A DNA stretch of 57,399 nucleotides. It comes from Elusimicrobiales bacterium. GTDB lineage: Bacteria > Elusimicrobiota > Elusimicrobia > Elusimicrobiales > UBA9959. Numbering within the stretch: position 1 is the stretch's first letter; every line of letters begins with the position of its first letter. The notes under the pieces were generated by a model. That model ran no database searches. It had not been told where the DNA came from and was given only the letters and a program-made list of their open reading frames with translations. Below are positions 8,268 through 17,400 of this stretch, in pieces. The DNA is taken from assembly GCA_031082205.1 (NCBI GenBank), contig JAVHLJ010000013.1, positions 1-57,399 of the forward strand. The letters run 5' to 3'. The translations under genes and the position numbers were made by a program.

Positions 8268-9227
8268 TCAGAAAGCGAACGCCATGGTCAGCCGCTTGGA
8301 AGAGCCGAAGCCGGCGAAGGGGGTGAAAGAGTAGTCCAGGCGCAGGCCGGACATCTTTATTCCGAGCCCGCCGGAGAAGCCGCCCAGCATGTCCGCCCCG
8401 CCCATCTGCGCCGCGTAGCCGCCTCGCATCGTCATCGAGCCGCCGAGCATGTATTCCGTGCCCACGCTGACGGTGGTCTCACGGTCGTAGACCAGGCGCT
8501 TGACGTCGGCCGCCAGGGCCATGCCCGGCAGGACGTTTACCGCCGCTCCCAGGCTGACCGACAGCGGCAGCCGGTTATTTCCGTAGCCGTAATCCAGACC
8601 GCCGCCGATATTGCGCACCGCCAGGCCAACCCTGACCGGCGCCGAGGGCAGCCTGGCCGTCACGCCCGCGTCGGCCGAAAGGGCCGAGGCCGTGCGGCCG
8701 GCGATATGGGAGGAGAAATGCCTGGCGGTCACGCCGAAGCCGACGCCGCCGCCCAGCGGCCCGGCGGCCGAGAGGGCGAAGGACTTGTCGGAAGCCTCGA
8801 AAGAACCGGTAAGGGCCCTGTTATCGTCGCGGCCCTGGAAACCGCCGTAGTCGAGCCGGGCGAAGGAGAACGCCCCCATCCAGCCGCCGCTTATGGGAGC
8901 GGCGAAGGAGGCCGCGCTGTAGGCGCCGTCCTCGGGCCAGTCGGCCTTCATGAAGGCCAGCTCGCGGCCGCGCAGGCCCAGCAGGCCGGCCGGGTTGGAC
9001 CAGGCCGACTCCGCGCCCAGGGCCAGCGCCGACTGCGCGTTGCCCATGGCGGCCGAGCGCGCCGAGGGATCTATGTTGAGGAATTCCGCGCCGGTCTCCA
9101 GCGCGTTGAGCAGGGTGCAGGAGGGGGTGAAAAGGAAGGCCAGCCCCAGGAAGAGGGCGTAGGGCCTCGACAGCCACCAGATCAGGCTGTTGAGGGCGTC
9201 CGTTTTCCTGGCCTCTTCCCTGTTCAT
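8268..9227 (-). CDS. PorV/PorQ-like outer-membrane beta-barrel protein
   Basis: The protein has 319 residues with an N-terminal hydrophobic export segment and a Cys near residue 37. It then carries the family signature GAEFLNIDPSARSAAMGNA...SAWSNPAGL, which marks UPF0164/PorV-type FadL-like barrels, followed by alternating amphipathic strands and a terminal aromatic residue (LTMAFAF), as expected for BamA-assembled barrels. PorV shuttles CTD-bearing cargo to the cell surface in type IX secretion; PorQ-like relatives have less defined roles. It follows the Kelch/CTD gene by 4 bases on the same strand, so a carrier-cargo pair is plausible. Confidence 0.75.
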   Translation of the reverse strand: MNREEARKTDALNSLIWWLSRPYALFLGLAFLFTPSCTLLNALETGAEFLNIDPSARSAAMGNAQSALALGAESAWSNPAGLLGLRGRELAFMKADWPEDGAYSAASFAAPISGGWMGAFSFARLDYGGFQGRDDNRALTGSFEASDKSFALSAAGPLGGGVGFGVTARHFSSHIAGRTASALSADAGVTARLPSAPVRVGLAVRNIGGGLDYGYGNNRLPLSVSLGAAVNVLPGMALAADVKRLVYDRETTVSVGTEYMLGGSMTMRGGYAAQMGGADMLGGFSGGLGIKMSGLRLDYSFTPFAGFGSSKRLTMAFAF

Positions 9228-9231
9228 AAAA

Positions 9232-11421
9232 TTACCTTATCACCGCGAACTTGCCCGTTTTGGTTATCTTCTGCGAACCTTTCGAAACCTCCACCGTGAA
9301 ATAGTAGACGCCGGCCTGAAGCTTCTCCCGCACCTCGTACTCGTAAGCGCTTTCAGGACCGGCGCCGTCGTCCACCTGCCCGGGAGCCCCGGTCACCCTG
9401 CCTTCGTCCGCTATCCTGCCGGACGCGGTATAAACCTTCACCGTCATGCCGTCGCCCGACGGCACCTCGGCGTGTATGACGGGCCGCCTGTTGACGGCCG
9501 GGTTGGGGAAAGCGTAGACCTCGCCGAATACGAGGGCCCCGTCGGCGACGGGCACGTCGGCGGGAGAGGCCGCCATGACCTGGTAGACGGAGAAGTGCGT
9601 GGTCTCGGCCGAGACGAGGCCGTTGGCCTCGTCGACAGCGGAGGCCAGCAGTTCCCACTCTCCCTTCCCGGCGTTCCAGTAGCCGACGGCCAGGGCCCTG
9701 CCGGGGGCCGCGGCGCTCTTGTCGTAAGGCAGCGATATCGTCACGGGCGCGCCGAACTGCATGCCGTGCGGGCCGAACTCGAAGGCCCGGCCGGCGGCGG
9801 CCATGCCGCGCGCCCGCATGCCGTTCTCGCGCTTCTCTTTTTCAGCCTTCGGGACGGCGGCTTCTTCCTCCGGGGCGGCCGTCAGCAGAAGTTCGGGATT
9901 GCCCTTGAACGAGCCTTTGGGTAGACGCACTTTGACGCCGCCGGGGCCGACGCGCTCGCCCGCGCGCTCCTGCAGTTCATAGGCGAACAGGGCCTGCTTG
10001 GTAAGGGCCCGGTTCATGCTCTCGCCGGAGAACTCGCGGCCGTCGGAAAGCTTTCCCTCTATCCTGGCGGAGAACTCGCCCTCGGGGATCACGGCCGCCA
10101 CGGCCTGCCTGTCGAACTTCACCATCGCGTAGGTCACTCCGGTCAGGCCGCCCATCTCCTCCGAATCGCCCGTATGTACCTTGGTGGTGAACTTGGGGTC
10201 GGGGTTTATCGGGGTTATGCTCTCGCCGTTGATGGCGGTTATCCTTATAGTTTCAGGCAGGACCATGTTTATGTCGGCCTCGGGCAGGCCGACCACGGCG
10301 GTTACCCATTTCCCCTTGGCGTCCTTGTTTATGGAGGTCGGGCTGAGCTTGACGAAGGCTTTGGGCTCGGCCTTTATCTTCGAATAGAAGATGTCGGCCT
10401 GCGGCTGTTCGATGTAGGCGAGGCCGCCGCCCAGCGTATAGACATAGTCCTCGGTGGCCAGCGCGGCCAGCGAGAGCAGGTTCTTGGGCAGCGCGTGCAG
10501 CGCCTGCCAGGCGCCGACTGTGCCGTCGGCCTGGAAGGGGGCGAAGTATACCGCGTTGCTGACGCCGCCGTTGAAGCCGCCGAATACGTAGACGCTGTTG
10601 GAGGTGGCGGCCGCCGCGTGCAGCATCATGGGCTCGGGCAGCGGGGCCAGCTCCTGCCAGGCGCCGAGCGTGCCGTCGGGGTTGATGACGGCGGAGAGGA
10701 CCTTGGCGGACGGCGCCGCGGGCTGCCCCTCGGGAGTGTAGAGACTGGAACCGGAGGAACCGCCGAGCAGATATATCCGGCCTTCCCTGACCAGAGCGCG
10801 TTGTCCCATCATGGTCCCGGGAAGCGGGAGTTCGGAGCGCCAAGTTCCCAGCGTGCCGTCGGCGTTTATCGGAGAGGAATATACGGCCGACTGCGCCCCG
10901 AGGCTCCGGGCTATGCCGCCCAGGACATAGATCCTGCCGCCGTGCTCCGCGGCCGCGTGGGCCATGAGCCTGGCGGGCATGGGGGTCGTGGCGGTCCACG
11001 CGGCGAGAGTGCCGTCCTCGTTGGCGCGGGAGTAGTAGACGGTGTCGCGCGCGCCGAAAAGGTTGGCCCCGCCGAGCGCGTAGATGACCCCGTTCTTTTC
11101 CACCGAAGCGTGCATGCCCAGGCCCAGGAGGTCCGGCATGGGGCTGGCAACCTGCCAGGCGCCGAGCGTGCCGTCGGGATTCATCTGCGCGCAGTAATAG
11201 ACATTGTTGAGGTAGCCGCCCTGGCCCCTGAGGCCGCCGGTGTCCGAGATCCCGCCCGCTACGTATATGTGGCCGTTGAGCGTTACGGCGGTATGGGACA
11301 TAAGGGCCTGGGGCAGAGGCGTGGTGGGGATGAACTGGGCCTTGACCGGGGCCGCGCAAAGGAGGAGGGCGGCCGCGTAAAGCGCCGCTCCTTTAATGAC
11401 CCCGGTCAGTTCAAGTTTCAT
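9232..11421 (-). CDS. Exported Kelch-repeat protein with ZU5-like and FlgD/type-IX-like C-terminal domains
   Basis: This protein has 729 residues. I start it at 11421 because GGGGAGAAT directly precedes this ATG and a signal peptide (ending CAAPVKA) follows; an in-frame start 60 codons earlier would lack a signal sequence and run through the riboswitch. Residues ~30-370 hold about six Kelch blades, each with a G-G motif and a repeated DGTLGAWQ-type turn. A ZU5-like domain follows (LPKGSF to TTHFSVYQVM). The last ~95 residues begin VYAFPNPAVNRRP and end AGVYYFTVEV...KFAVIR, the pattern of C-terminal sorting/FlgD-like Ig domains. Expected location: outer surface. It is preceded by a probable riboswitch and terminator. 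Confidence 0.78.
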   Translation of the reverse strand: MKLELTGVIKGAALYAAALLLCAAPVKAQFIPTTPLPQALMSHTAVTLNGHIYVAGGISDTGGLRGQGGYLNNVYYCAQMNPDGTLGAWQVASPMPDLLGLGMHASVEKNGVIYALGGANLFGARDTVYYSRANEDGTLAAWTATTPMPARLMAHAAAEHGGRIYVLGGIARSLGAQSAVYSSPINADGTLGTWRSELPLPGTMMGQRALVREGRIYLLGGSSGSSLYTPEGQPAAPSAKVLSAVINPDGTLGAWQELAPLPEPMMLHAAAATSNSVYVFGGFNGGVSNAVYFAPFQADGTVGAWQALHALPKNLLSLAALATEDYVYTLGGGLAYIEQPQADIFYSKIKAEPKAFVKLSPTSINKDAKGKWVTAVVGLPEADINMVLPETIRITAINGESITPINPDPKFTTKVHTGDSEEMGGLTGVTYAMVKFDRQAVAAVIPEGEFSARIEGKLSDGREFSGESMNRALTKQALFAYELQERAGERVGPGGVKVRLPKGSFKGNPELLLTAAPEEEAAVPKAEKEKRENGMRARGMAAAGRAFEFGPHGMQFGAPVTISLPYDKSAAAPGRALAVGYWNAGKGEWELLASAVDEANGLVSAETTHFSVYQVMAASPADVPVADGALVFGEVYAFPNPAVNRRPVIHAEVPSGDGMTVKVYTASGRIADEGRVTGAPGQVDDGAGPESAYEYEVREKLQAGVYYFTVEVSKGSQKITKTGKFAVIR

Positions 11422-11447
11422 ATTCTCCCCGAAAAACAAAAGCCGCC

Positions 11448-11477
11448 GAAAAAGACCGTTCCTCCGCGGATGACGGT
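11448..11477 (-). terminator. Leader terminator of the Kelch gene (riboswitch expression platform)
   Basis: On the minus strand ACCGT and ACGGT pair around an inner TCCGCGGA palindrome, followed by CTTTTT. It lies inside the leader between the aptamer and the start codon, where an OFF-switch terminator would sit. Confidence 0.55.
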
Positions 11478-11484
11478 TCTCACT

Positions 11485-11512
11485 TTTCGGCAGCTCGACT
11501 GGCGTAAAGACC
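11485..11512 (-). repeat. Duplicated 3' half of the riboswitch aptamer
   Basis: These 28 bases match 23 of 28 with 11529-11556, the 3' strand of the probable aptamer, including an identical 13-base CGAGCTGCCGAAA block on the minus strand. Because it lies between aptamer and terminator it could compete for the same 5' partner strand. The match was counted by eye. Confidence 0.6.
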
Positions 11513-11523
11513 CTGCTTCTCTT

Positions 11524-11613
11524 CCCGGTTTCGGCAGCTCGTCCGGCATCGAGACCTGGTCTCATTAGCCCCGCAGCTTTGCGTTCCCGGCCTTTCGGCA
11601 AGCGGGAGTGCTA
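11524..11613 (-). ncRNA. Probable GEMM-type (cyclic dinucleotide) riboswitch aptamer
   Basis: Reading the minus strand, a hairpin CCCG-CTT-GCC-GAAA-GGC-CGGG is followed by AACGCAAAGCT, close to the GEMM-I core GACGCAAAGCC. A second arm follows with GGGCTAAT opposite GATGCC, resembling the 11-nt tetraloop receptor that docks the GAAA loop, capped by the stem GAGAC/GTCTC. It ends GAGCTGCCGA where the consensus has GGGTTGCCGA. AGCT/AGCT pairing replaces the usual base of this arm, a compensated change. The canonical GGCAAACC on the 5' side is not conserved (AGCACTCCC) and the outer P1 stem is weak, so this may be a divergent or altered-specificity variant. c-di-GMP or 3',3'-cGAMP would be the expected ligand. 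Confidence 0.6.
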
Positions 11614-11628
11614 TTATCGTACACCTAT

Positions 11629-11657
11629 AGCGTAGCAGACACCCCCCCCTTTGGCAA
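11629..11657 (-). promoter_or_regulatory. Putative promoter of the riboswitch/Kelch transcript
   Basis: On the minus strand TTGCCA (11652-11657) is followed after 17 bases by TACGCT (11629-11634), placing transcription start near 11622, just upstream of the aptamer. The -10 box is imperfect. A run of eight G's fills part of the spacer. Confidence 0.4.
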
Positions 11658-11685
11658 GGCCCAAGGGCGTCAAATTTTAGTCAAA
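11658..11685 (+). repeat. 28-bp upstream motif, copy 2
   Basis: This is the second copy of the element at 795-822, starting GGCCCAAGGGC and ending AGTCAAA. It lies in the divergent region between the Kelch gene and the PorV-TPR gene and ends 35 bases before the ATG at 11721. Confidence 0.5.
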
Positions 11686-13556: not shown

Positions 13557-16027
13557 TGAAGAACGCCGCGTTCATGGCCGCCCTGCTCTTAGCGCCCCTG
13601 CCGGCCTCCGCCGTAGACATGGGCGGCGCCGACCTCACTCCCGCAAATTACGATACGCTGAGCGGCACCTATACCAGCGTGGGCAACTTCACCATCCCCG
13701 CAGGAGTCACCGTCTTCGTGGGGCAGGGGACCGGACTCTTTATCTACGCTTCCACCGTGACGATAAACGGTCACCTCAACGCCAACGGCCGAGGTTACGC
13801 CGGCGGCGCGGCCGGCGAGCCCGGACTGGCCGGGGGGCAGGGTTTCGGCCCCGGCGGCGGGGGCGGCGCAGCGGCGGGATCCGGCGGCGGAGGCGGCGGC
13901 CACGGCGACGCCGACTTTGACGGGGCTTCCGGCGGAGACGGGGACGGGGCCGGATCCGGGACGGGAGGCCTTCCTTACGGCCCGACCTCTCAGATAAGCG
14001 TTCCTTTTTCCGCGGACGACGTGTCAATGGGATCCGGCGGAGGCGGCGGAGGAGGGGGAGATTCCAACGCCACCAGCGGTTCCGGCGGCGTCGGCGGCGG
14101 CCTCGTATATATCTCCGCCGGCCACATGGTCATAACCGGGACCGTTTCCGCCGACGGGCTGGAGGGCGGTCCGGGGCTTAACACATTCGACTGCACGGGC
14201 AACCCCGGAGGAGGAGGGGGAGGAGGAGGAGGAGGCCTCGCGCTCCGTTCAGAAGGCCTGCTGGACCTTTCCGGAGCCCGGATCTCCGCGGCCGGGGGTA
14301 TCGGCGGCGCCACTCTGTGCAATGGAGGCGCGAGCACCAACCCGGGCGGCGGCGGCGCCGGCGGAAGGATCAAGCTTCTGGCCTCATCTTTCGCGACCGC
14401 TTCGGTGACCGTTTCCACGGCCCCCGGCCGCGGCGGCGAGGATATAAGTTTCGCGAACTATTCCCAGTCGGGTTCTTCGGGGACGGTCTCATGGGCCGTG
14501 CTCCCGTCTTCCCCTACCGGCCTGGCCTTCACCGGCGTTTTCAAGACCTCGGTCTCATATTCCTGGGACGGCATGCTCGACGCCGAGTTCGGCGGGCCGC
14601 TGTCCATGCTGCCCGACCTCACCGTGAGGCAGTTCCGCCTCTTCGCCGGTACGGAGGCCATCCCCTTCACCGGCTCCTTCACCGGCGTCTCGGCCTCCAA
14701 GGATTCGACCGCGGCCGAGGAAACGGGCCTGACGCCCGACACCACTGTATACCGCTTCATCACGGCCTATACCGACCTGGGCGACAGCGCGCCTTCGCTG
14801 ACGCTCTCGACCTGGACCTGGGCCGCGCCGCCGGTGATGGCGCAGGCCTCCGCCTTCGTCGGGCTGTCGAGCTACTCGCTCTCGGTCGCCTGGTCTTCGG
14901 GCGCGGCGGCCACCGGCTTCAACCCGGCCTATACTTCTTACGAGATGAGCTTCTCGAGTTCCGCGGATTTCAGCGCGCCAGTCTCGACCGGTTTCCTGAC
15001 GGGAGTGTCTTCAGCTCCCGCGGGCCTGCTCGTGAATACGACCTATTATCTGCGGGTGCGGGCCCTGGGCCTCAACGGCGCCTACACGGCCTTCGCTCAG
15101 ACGGTTTCGACCCCGACCATGGCGGCCCCGCCTTACGCGCCGGCCTTCTCGAAAGTGCACGTCTCGAGCGCCGTGCTGGTATGGAACGGGGCCGGTAATC
15201 CGGACGGCACGGTCTTCGAGGCGCAGCTCTCCGTCGATAATTTCGTGACGGTCAGCTCCGCCCCGCTGACGACCGACACTACCGCCTATTTCGGGGATCT
15301 GTCTCCCGGCACCGTCTACACCGCGCGGGTGCGCGCGCTCAACCACGCCTCGGTGCCGACCGGATTTTCCGTATCGGTGTCCACCACGCCCGGTTCGCTG
15401 AGCAACCTGGAGGCGCCGGGCCGGCCCGAGCCGCCGCAGCCCTCCTCTCCTTACTCTTACGACGGGACGGCGGTATTCGCCTGGTCCCCTCCTGCGGGCG
15501 CCGTCCCGATATACGAGTACATACTGGAACTGGGCACTTTCCCCGGCGGCAACGACCTGGGGACGGATAATGTCCTCGCGTCGGGGGCGCTCAGTTATTC
15601 GACCAATACCCTGGTTTCCGGCAGGACTTATTACGGGAGGGTGCGTGCCAAGAGCGAGGCGGGCGTCCTGGGAGAGTTCTCCGCGTCCGGCAGCGGCGTT
15701 CAGGTCTGGATAACCGCCAGCGAGGCCGCCATCTCAAAGCCCTACAACTGGCCGAATCCGTTCGATCCGGCCGCCGGCGCCACCAATATCGGGTTCAATC
15801 TCTCCGGCCCGGCGACGGTAACCGTGCGGATATTCACGCTGCAGGGCCGCGAGGTCTGGTCGCGATCGGCCTATGAGCCCTCAGGCGGCAACAAGGTCTG
15901 GTCCTGGAACGGCCGCAACGGCGCCGGCTCCACGGTGGAGCCCGGCGGCTACGCCGTCATGGTCACCAAGGACTACGCCGCCGGCGGCAGCCAGACGCAG
16001 AAATTCAAGCTGGCGGTGCTCTACTGA
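13553..16027 (+). CDS. Exported glycine-rich protein with fibronectin-III repeats and FlgD-like CTD
   Basis: This protein has 824 residues. A signal peptide (MKNAAFMAALLLAPLPASA) is followed by a beta segment, then residues ~80-285 with long Gly runs, some of eight or nine glycines broken by Ala/Ser. Several FN3-like domains follow (about 325-720), each ending in a TxYxxRVRA-type strand: TYYLRVRAL, VYTARVRAL and TYYGRVRAK. The last ~95 residues start KPYNWPNPFDP and contain VTVRIFTLQGREVW and GGYAVMVT, the FlgD-like/sorting-domain pattern. It overlaps the PorV-TPR gene by 4 bases and the adenylate cyclase gene by one base, so translation is probably coupled. A surface adhesin or sheath component is likely. 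Confidence 0.75.
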   Translation: MMKNAAFMAALLLAPLPASAVDMGGADLTPANYDTLSGTYTSVGNFTIPAGVTVFVGQGTGLFIYASTVTINGHLNANGRGYAGGAAGEPGLAGGQGFGPGGGGGAAAGSGGGGGGHGDADFDGASGGDGDGAGSGTGGLPYGPTSQISVPFSADDVSMGSGGGGGGGGDSNATSGSGGVGGGLVYISAGHMVITGTVSADGLEGGPGLNTFDCTGNPGGGGGGGGGGLALRSEGLLDLSGARISAAGGIGGATLCNGGASTNPGGGGAGGRIKLLASSFATASVTVSTAPGRGGEDISFANYSQSGSSGTVSWAVLPSSPTGLAFTGVFKTSVSYSWDGMLDAEFGGPLSMLPDLTVRQFRLFAGTEAIPFTGSFTGVSASKDSTAAEETGLTPDTTVYRFITAYTDLGDSAPSLTLSTWTWAAPPVMAQASAFVGLSSYSLSVAWSSGAAATGFNPAYTSYEMSFSSSADFSAPVSTGFLTGVSSAPAGLLVNTTYYLRVRALGLNGAYTAFAQTVSTPTMAAPPYAPAFSKVHVSSAVLVWNGAGNPDGTVFEAQLSVDNFVTVSSAPLTTDTTAYFGDLSPGTVYTARVRALNHASVPTGFSVSVSTTPGSLSNLEAPGRPEPPQPSSPYSYDGTAVFAWSPPAGAVPIYEYILELGTFPGGNDLGTDNVLASGALSYSTNTLVSGRTYYGRVRAKSEAGVLGEFSASGSGVQVWITASEAAISKPYNWPNPFDPAAGATNIGFNLSGPATVTVRIFTLQGREVWSRSAYEPSGGNKVWSWNGRNGAGSTVEPGGYAVMVTKDYAAGGSQTQKFKLAVLY

Positions 16028-17400
16028 TGAAGAACTTCAGCAGGATGGCCCTCAAGATCTGCGTCTTCTCGTCGGCCCTCATCCTGGCCGTGATGGCCGC
16101 GATGGCGCACATACTGCTCGACGCCTCGCGCGAGGCCCTGCTGGGCGAGATGCGGCTGCGGGCCGAGGCCTTCTCCCGCTCGGCGCGGGAGGCTTTTATC
16201 CCGTCCCTGGACGTTTTCAACCTGCACCTGGCCGTGAACGCCATGACGCGCGAGCGCGCCATAGGCATGGCCCTGGTCACCGACCGGTCCGGCCGCGTGC
16301 TGTCCCACTCGCTGGCCGACATGGTCGGCGAACAGGACGATTCGCCCGAGGGCGCGGCGGCCCGCGCGGCCGAGGGCATGACCGTGATCCCCTCGGGGGG
16401 CGGCTGGTACATCGCCGCCCCCGTATCGACGGGCGCCGGCAGGGCCGCCACCGCGGCCATAGTGCTCACCCCGGAGAGCCTGGCCGGGGCCCTGGCGCCT
16501 ATGCGCCGCAAGGTCCTCTACGTCACGCTGGCTGCGCTGGCCGCCGCGCTGATGGGCACCATCGCAATAGTCAGCTGGCTGATGCGGCCCATCCCCATGC
16601 TGGCCCGCGCCGCGCGGGATGTCGGAGAGGGGAAGCTGGACACCGAGGTGACCTGGCGGAGCTCCGACGAGATAGGCGTGCTGGCCAGGGCCTTCAACGA
16701 CATGGTCAGGGGACTGCGGGAGCGGGACCACATAAGGAACGTCTTCGGCCGCTACGTCTCGGGCGAGATAGCCGACGCGGTGCTGGGCGGCAAGCTGCCG
16801 CTGGGCGGCGAGCGCAGGCATATCGCGGTCATTTTCGCCGATATACGCGACTTCAGCGCCATGGGCCAGCGCGACCAGCCGGAAACGGTGGTTAAGCTGC
16901 TCAACGACTACTTCTCCCTGATGACCCGCGTCATACGCGCGCGCGGCGGCATAGTGGATAAGTTCCTGGGCGACGGCCTGCTGGCCATGTTCGGCGCGCC
17001 ACTGGCCACCGACAATCCCGAGGAGCGGGCCGTGCGCGCGGCCCTGGAGATGCGCTGGACTCTGTCGGCCTTCAACACCCACCGGGTGCAGGAAGGTCTG
17101 CCTCCCATAGCCATGGGGCTCTGCGTTACCAGCGGCGAAGCCCTGGTCGGGAATATAGGCAGCGACGAGAAGATGGAATATACCGCTATAGGCGAGCCGG
17201 TGAACCTGGCCTCCCGTCTCGAGGGCGTAAATAAGCGGCTGGGGACCTCGGCCATAGTTTCTAAGGCCGTAATGGAGGCGACGGGGGCGGCGTTCCAGTA
17301 TAAGGAACTGGGCTCCCACGTCATACGCGGCTGGAAGGACCCCCTGGACCTTTTCGAGCTCCTGGACCCCGGTTCGGCCGCCGGCGGCCCCCGCCGTTGA
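16027..17400 (+). CDS. Membrane-bound class III adenylate cyclase with HAMP linker
   Basis: This 457-residue enzyme is predicted to make cAMP from ATP. It has an N-terminal membrane segment (9-30), an extracytoplasmic sensor region (31-160), a second membrane segment (163-185), a HAMP domain (186-238) and a cyclase catalytic domain (265-450). Metal ligands Asp272 (FADIRDF) and Asp316 (DKFLGDG), adenine-specifying Lys312 and Thr386, and transition-state Asn393/Arg397 (PVNLASRLEG) are all present, so it should be active and ATP-specific. It is the last gene of the PorV-TPR/CTD operon, suggesting that envelope state is sensed there. No cAMP receptor protein is encoded in the window. Confidence 0.88.
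   Translation: MKNFSRMALKICVFSSALILAVMAAMAHILLDASREALLGEMRLRAEAFSRSAREAFIPSLDVFNLHLAVNAMTRERAIGMALVTDRSGRVLSHSLADMVGEQDDSPEGAAARAAEGMTVIPSGGGWYIAAPVSTGAGRAATAAIVLTPESLAGALAPMRRKVLYVTLAALAAALMGTIAIVSWLMRPIPMLARAARDVGEGKLDTEVTWRSSDEIGVLARAFNDMVRGLRERDHIRNVFGRYVSGEIADAVLGGKLPLGGERRHIAVIFADIRDFSAMGQRDQPETVVKLLNDYFSLMTRVIRARGGIVDKFLGDGLLAMFGAPLATDNPEERAVRAALEMRWTLSAFNTHRVQEGLPPIAMGLCVTSGEALVGNIGSDEKMEYTAIGEPVNLASRLEGVNKRLGTSAIVSKAVMEATGAAFQYKELGSHVIRGWKDPLDLFELLDPGSAAGGPRR

Follow-up and report, generated by a model that had tools for sequence, protein, structure and literature searches.

In the genome of an Elusimicrobiales bacterium, a GEMM-I riboswitch with one aptamer 5′ half and two 3′ halves lies ahead of a gene encoding a Kelch-repeat protein. 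The first 3′ half (copy 1) completes the aptamer; the second (copy 2) follows downstream, and the terminator and the ligand pocket share nucleotides only via this second copy. The RNA, with an A20 pocket of the cGAMP type, could serve as an ON switch for transcription of the secreted Kelch gene, a reading that as a whole is given an even chance. The second copy probably decides whether the Kelch gene is read. The features of the locus within the analysed stretch of 57,399 nucleotides (the window) are listed in Table 1.

Table 1. Features of the riboswitch leader and the adjoining genes (positions in the window).
Feature	Position	Strand	Basis
Putative promoter (-35 TTGCCA 11657-11652, 17-nt spacer, -10 TACGCT 11634-11629)	11629..11657	-	by eye
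c-di-GMP-I/GEMM-I aptamer closed by the first 3′ half	11530..11622	-	RF01051, 49.3 bits
Pocket position 20, A (G in c-di-GMP-type aptamers)	11612	-	RF01051 alignment
P2 hairpin with GAAA tetraloop	11586..11606	-	sequence and RF01051 alignment
Core AACGCAAAGC	11585-11576	-	sequence
P3 5′ strand and apical P3b hairpin, partner to copy 1 and copy 2 alike	11548..11578	-	
Copy 1 of the aptamer 3′ half (P3b, P3 and P1 3′ strands; pocket C92 at 11534)	11529..11556	-	
GAGCTGCCGA end	11540-11531	-	sequence
Copy 2 of the aptamer 3′ half (second copy of GAGCTGCCGAAA plus flanks, 23/28 identical to copy 1; C92 equivalent at 11490)	11485..11512	-	
Intrinsic terminator (end of copy 2 as 5′ arm; CTTTTTCGGCGGC 11454-11442 as 3′ arm; T tract 11441-11432)	11432..11496	-	folding
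RBS GGGGAG	11425..11430	-	by eye
Kelch beta-propeller protein, 729 aa, probably secreted, weak T9SS-type C-terminal domain	9232..11421	-	Pfam, TIGR04183
Next gene, 4 nt downstream	8268..9227	-	no Pfam match

A cmscan search of the whole window against Rfam gives one RF01051 (c-di-GMP-I) match (11622-11530, minus strand, E 1.2e-6), with a score well above the gathering cut-off of 35 bits. After clan competition no family other than RF01051 remains here at E ≤ 1; c-di-GMP-I-GGC (RF03167) was considered as the class, and the RNA goes to RF01051 instead. An earlier note had proposed a GEMM-like cyclic-dinucleotide riboswitch ahead of a surface Kelch gene and suggested the covariance-model search, and both the match and the Pfam Kelch families bear it out. 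The GAAA-capped hairpin, the core, the GCTAAT/GATGCC receptor-like arm on the minus strand and the 3′ end that it described are all present, as are the terminator behind the aptamer and the ribosome-binding site (RBS) ahead of the ATG at 11421. Core, P2 tetraloop and receptor are all found in the RF01051 alignment, the core is kept across orthologs, and the terminator and RBS ahead of the gene are conserved there too. Judged by its sequence, the RNA is a genuine GEMM-I cyclic-dinucleotide riboswitch. The putative promoter was missed by a simple consensus promoter scan; its spacing is identical in the orthologous leaders L061-L063, where TGN precedes the -10 element. P1 of the aptamer is short because this likely promoter sits directly at the aptamer.

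The regulated gene encodes a protein with Kelch repeats (Pfam) and a signal-like N terminus in the translation from the ATG, which is probably secreted. The C-terminal domain claimed in the earlier note is matched by a resemblance to T9SS sorting domains, at a TIGR04183 score below the threshold (18.8 bits vs a cut-off of 23). The gene that follows is possibly co-transcribed. The source genome (a 2.75-Mb assembly) has two further GEMM RNAs, one ahead of a PorV/PorQ-family gene and the other near a HEAT-repeat gene, and their pattern matches many Elusimicrobia assemblies in a pattern scan. Both score just above the cut-off of RF03167; the consensus of that family has G at positions 20 and 47, whereas these RNAs have A20 and A47. 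The leader of the PorV/PorQ-family gene (L001 1502-1700; G000:C22 about 129,613-129,811) has a perfect TTGACA/TATAAT promoter and an A20 aptamer, and a FliG_C/TPR gene comes next. If translation starts at the in-frame ATG found a few nucleotides past the aptamer, the terminator-like hairpin of this leader would fall within the opening codons; this arrangement is repeated in L056-L058. Elsewhere in the window (16027-17400, plus strand), a gene with HAMP and adenylate/guanylate cyclase domains stands downstream of TPR and fn3/FlgD_ig genes.

The most unusual part of the leader, absent from the first reading, is the duplicated 3′ half. In 2000 shuffles of the sequence downstream, the identity between the copies over 28 nt was never reached. 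Within copy 2 lie the P3 3′ strand, the junction and the pocket strand RCCGAA; the terminator takes its 5′ arm from the end of the copy. No second 5′ half is present between the copies, and the leader is not a tandem riboswitch of two complete aptamers.

The same leader-gene pair is present in three other genomes of the genus (RF01051, 47-49 bits), and RF01051 matches occur in 48 of the 59 genomes of the family. Twenty leaders of the long-aptamer type were collected from 20 genomes of one family, many relatives being draft assemblies. A Kelch-gene homologue stands behind 19 of them; tblastn gave no Kelch match for the twentieth (L123). Copy 2 is likewise present in 19/20, with CCGAA invariant in copy 2 and not in copy 1. 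The exception, L063 (G002:C49), keeps the aptamer and has lost both copy 2 and the terminator, with the RBS close behind; this natural deletion may have left the leader constitutive or under translational control. With a sequence-only model of the leader and copy 2, full-length matches scoring over 60 bits are confined to those 19 of the 341 genomes searched, and in the L063 genome the match stops short of copy 2. The remaining GEMM leaders, mostly of 79 nt, showed no copy 2 above 12/18. The duplicated-half arrangement, as judged from sequence, does recur in other families of the phylum. Outside the family, L224 has it ahead of a Kelch homologue and L226 combines it with very strong cognate pairing (apical -16.9 vs a mean of -5.2 for others); no Kelch similarity was detected in the short stretch read at L226. 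The architecture is seen with weaker support in L228, L229 and L235. In two further leaders, L233 and L236 (G336, G338), the aptamer 3′ strand apparently occurs in three partial copies.

Copy 2 could pair with the P3 5′ strand in a longer helix, P3*. Since the apical region is too variable for a column-wise alignment, P3* was tested by comparing cognate and non-cognate duplexes. Immediately ahead of copy 2 lies a segment whose pairing is stronger with the P3b strand and loop of the same leader than with those from other leaders: apical x copy 2 duplexes average -9.72 kcal/mol when cognate and -6.89 when not, and none of 5000 permutations is as good. For 16 less redundant leaders the cognate value is -9.96 against a permutation mean of -7.14, again with 0/5000 as good. 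Composition-matched shuffles agree with cognate pairing for most leaders; the apical pairing of L069, L119 and L124 is no better than that of their own shuffles. At P3a* position 52 the 13 distinct rows have C-G six times, U-A six times and U-G once, a U/C52 covariation that alone is weak (3-4 changes on the tree), and RNAalifold on the whole leader alignment chooses the copy-1 structure. Taken at the level of sequence, the upstream part of copy 2 covaries with the P3 strand and loop of the aptamer, in support of P3*.

Folding was assessed with ViennaRNA energies, which ignore tertiary contacts, ligand and kinetics. In the window leader the terminator stem spans about 11496-11442 (minus strand), its 5′ arm starts at copy 2 nt 8, and its pairing probability (pTerm) in the free ensemble is about 1.0. 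A simple terminator scan found none at the leader, the large loop being the probable reason. In the full-length RNA, pTerm is 0.86-1.00 for both the free state and the copy-1-closed form, and the unliganded value is about 1 in 19/19 leaders. The terminator never forms when copy 2 closes the aptamer, because the shared nucleotides are forced to pair; this is logic, not measurement. When P3* alone is forced, the terminator stays intact (pTerm 0.97-1.00; 0.75 in L069). For transcripts ending at copy 2, closure of the aptamer by copy 2 is favoured over closure by copy 1 in all 19 leaders, by 2.3-9.6 kcal/mol. In 10 of the 19 leaders the start of the terminator 5′ arm coincides exactly with that of the pocket strand (copy 2 nt 13); the terminator overlaps P3* in the window's genus, in g8 and g11 and in families outside f1.

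These properties suggest a mechanism in which the single 5′ half could pair with either 3′ half. Copy 1, transcribed first, would fold the nascent aptamer and probably give it an early, uncontested chance at ligand binding. The emerging copy 2 could then displace copy 1 with formation of P3*, bringing both the pocket strand with its ligand-contacting C and the terminator arm. Without ligand, copy 2 would drop into the terminator and transcription would stop; ligand held by the 5′ half and copy 2 would block the terminator, and the gene would be read.

The pocket residues A20, A47 and C92 are the GEMM-Ib (3′,3′-cGAMP) signature. A20 is tied to 3′,3′-cGAMP specificity: it confers selection of cGAMP in Geobacter riboswitches, and the A20G exchange makes Gmet_0970 selective for c-di-GMP (PMC6456294). 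The altered ligand specificity supposed in the earlier note is retained in that A at position 20 makes the RNA a cGAMP candidate; the unusual outer P1, from which it was deduced, is not an informative reason. A20 is found in 3/3 GEMM RNAs of the source genome and in 87 of 98 aptamers sampled in the family (G20 in 11, A47 in all); the best-scoring loci sampled from other families of the class have A in 2 cases and G in 26. Position 20 changes between A and G at least three times across the orthologous leaders on the tree of Kelch proteins. The six GGDEF domains of the source genome all have Asp at the Hypr Ser348 position, with no Ser-type Hypr GGDEF among them, and those read in five relatives are Asp as well (two domains off the motif pattern were excluded). 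SMODS-type CD-NTase has no match in the source genome and occurs in only 6 of the 59 family genomes. A recognised cGAMP synthase, a supporting and non-defining trait of GEMM-Ib, was not found in the genomes checked, which speaks against the cGAMP reading. A non-Arg residue at a possible cross-dimer position of the L007-type GGDEF explains nothing, because it is also present in G007, whose sampled riboswitches are all G20; HD-domain counts were set aside as unspecific. Three REC-GGDDF proteins of the source genome (L009, L010 and L011; G000), conserved in relatives, have YGY/YGF replacing YGH.

The ligand could instead be c-di-GMP, with A20 tolerated and the A/G differences among orthologs due to drift or affinity tuning. 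This is held somewhat less probable than an even chance, an estimate that does not exclude the other readings, as it fits either polarity. The Asp residues in all GGDEF domains read in the six genomes and the rarity of SMODS speak for it, as do a GGDEF complement that is alike whether the sampled riboswitches are A20 or G20 and the sister leaders L130 (A) and L131 (G), which differ at position 20. It is at odds with the selectivity of the Geobacter pockets and with the coordinated look of the pocket, U19 accompanying A20 in 88 of the 89 A20 aptamers scored. The pocket thus suggests cGAMP while the known enzymes do not.

An ON switch is moderately favoured over an OFF switch, since the terminator and the pocket share nucleotides only through copy 2. 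Under OFF control, ligand would lock the aptamer closed by copy 1 and leave copy 2 to form the terminator, and in the unliganded RNA copy 2 would invade P3 as a kinetic antiterminator. Such a design, considered rather unlikely, draws on the compatibility of the copy-1-closed aptamer with the terminator, on the advantage of copy 2 over copy 1 in partial transcripts and on C. difficile Cd1, a GEMM-I riboswitch of OFF type whose aptamer and terminator are present together (PMC9262584). It is possible in the window's genus and the other groups where the terminator arm overlaps P3*. Where the terminator begins at copy 2 nt 13, P3* is left clear and the unliganded state would also terminate, in line with an equilibrium pTerm of about 1 without ligand in every leader. 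In those 10 leaders the gene would open only through a P1 that ligand stabilises via copy 2, and this speaks for ON control as in Geobacter pilM. Copy 2 might also be a mere decaying remnant of a tandem aptamer, with a handy terminator arm and no competition with copy 1. Its identity to copy 1, the frequency of tandem GEMM-I riboswitches (PMC9481103) and the loss of copy 2 and terminator in L063, a genus member, are compatible with this; it is made very unlikely by the conservation of copy 2 in the other orthologous leaders, by an upstream part that follows each leader's own variable P3b strand and loop and by recurrence in other families with strong pairing, as in L226. A broader scheme appears quite unlikely: rival 3′ halves by which ligand terminates through the first and reads through via the second, in a timed or band-pass response, with the GEMM regulon of the family running on cGAMP from a synthase beyond the known ones.

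Among known systems, the RNA shares with RF01051 GEMM-I the core, the P2 GAAA loop, the receptor, the three-helix junction and an above-gathering score; it differs by A20, a very short P1 and the duplicated 3′ half. A20, A47 and C92 are common to it and the Geobacter GEMM-Ib RNAs (pgcA GSUR3008, pilM; PMC9262584, PMC6456294), as is a terminator using the ligand-contacting C (PMC9262584); those RNAs differ in that a recognised cGAMP synthase was not found in the source genome. In the pilM cGAMP ON switch the terminator sequesters this C (PMC9262584), its arm being the sole aptamer 3′ strand, whereas the arm in the window is a second copy of that strand. With Cd1 the RNA shares the ability of the copy-1-closed aptamer to coexist with the terminator. 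The Cd1 antiterminator joins aptamer-stabilising and switching strands (PMC9262584); in the window a strand mimic competes for the 5′ partner. Like tandem c-di-GMP-I riboswitches (PMC9481103), the leader repeats aptamer sequence ahead of one gene, with the difference that only the 3′ half is repeated and one 5′ half serves both.

A second copy of a sensor half is apparently unreported so far; in CC-licensed full texts no description of a sensor copy as a switching element was found. This expression platform would be switched by a copy of part of the sensor and not by a complementary strand. The A20/G20 flips at one orthologous leader constitute a natural experiment on change in second-messenger specificity, and with A20 riboswitches in genomes that have no recognised cGAMP synthase, the source of the signal becomes a testable question.
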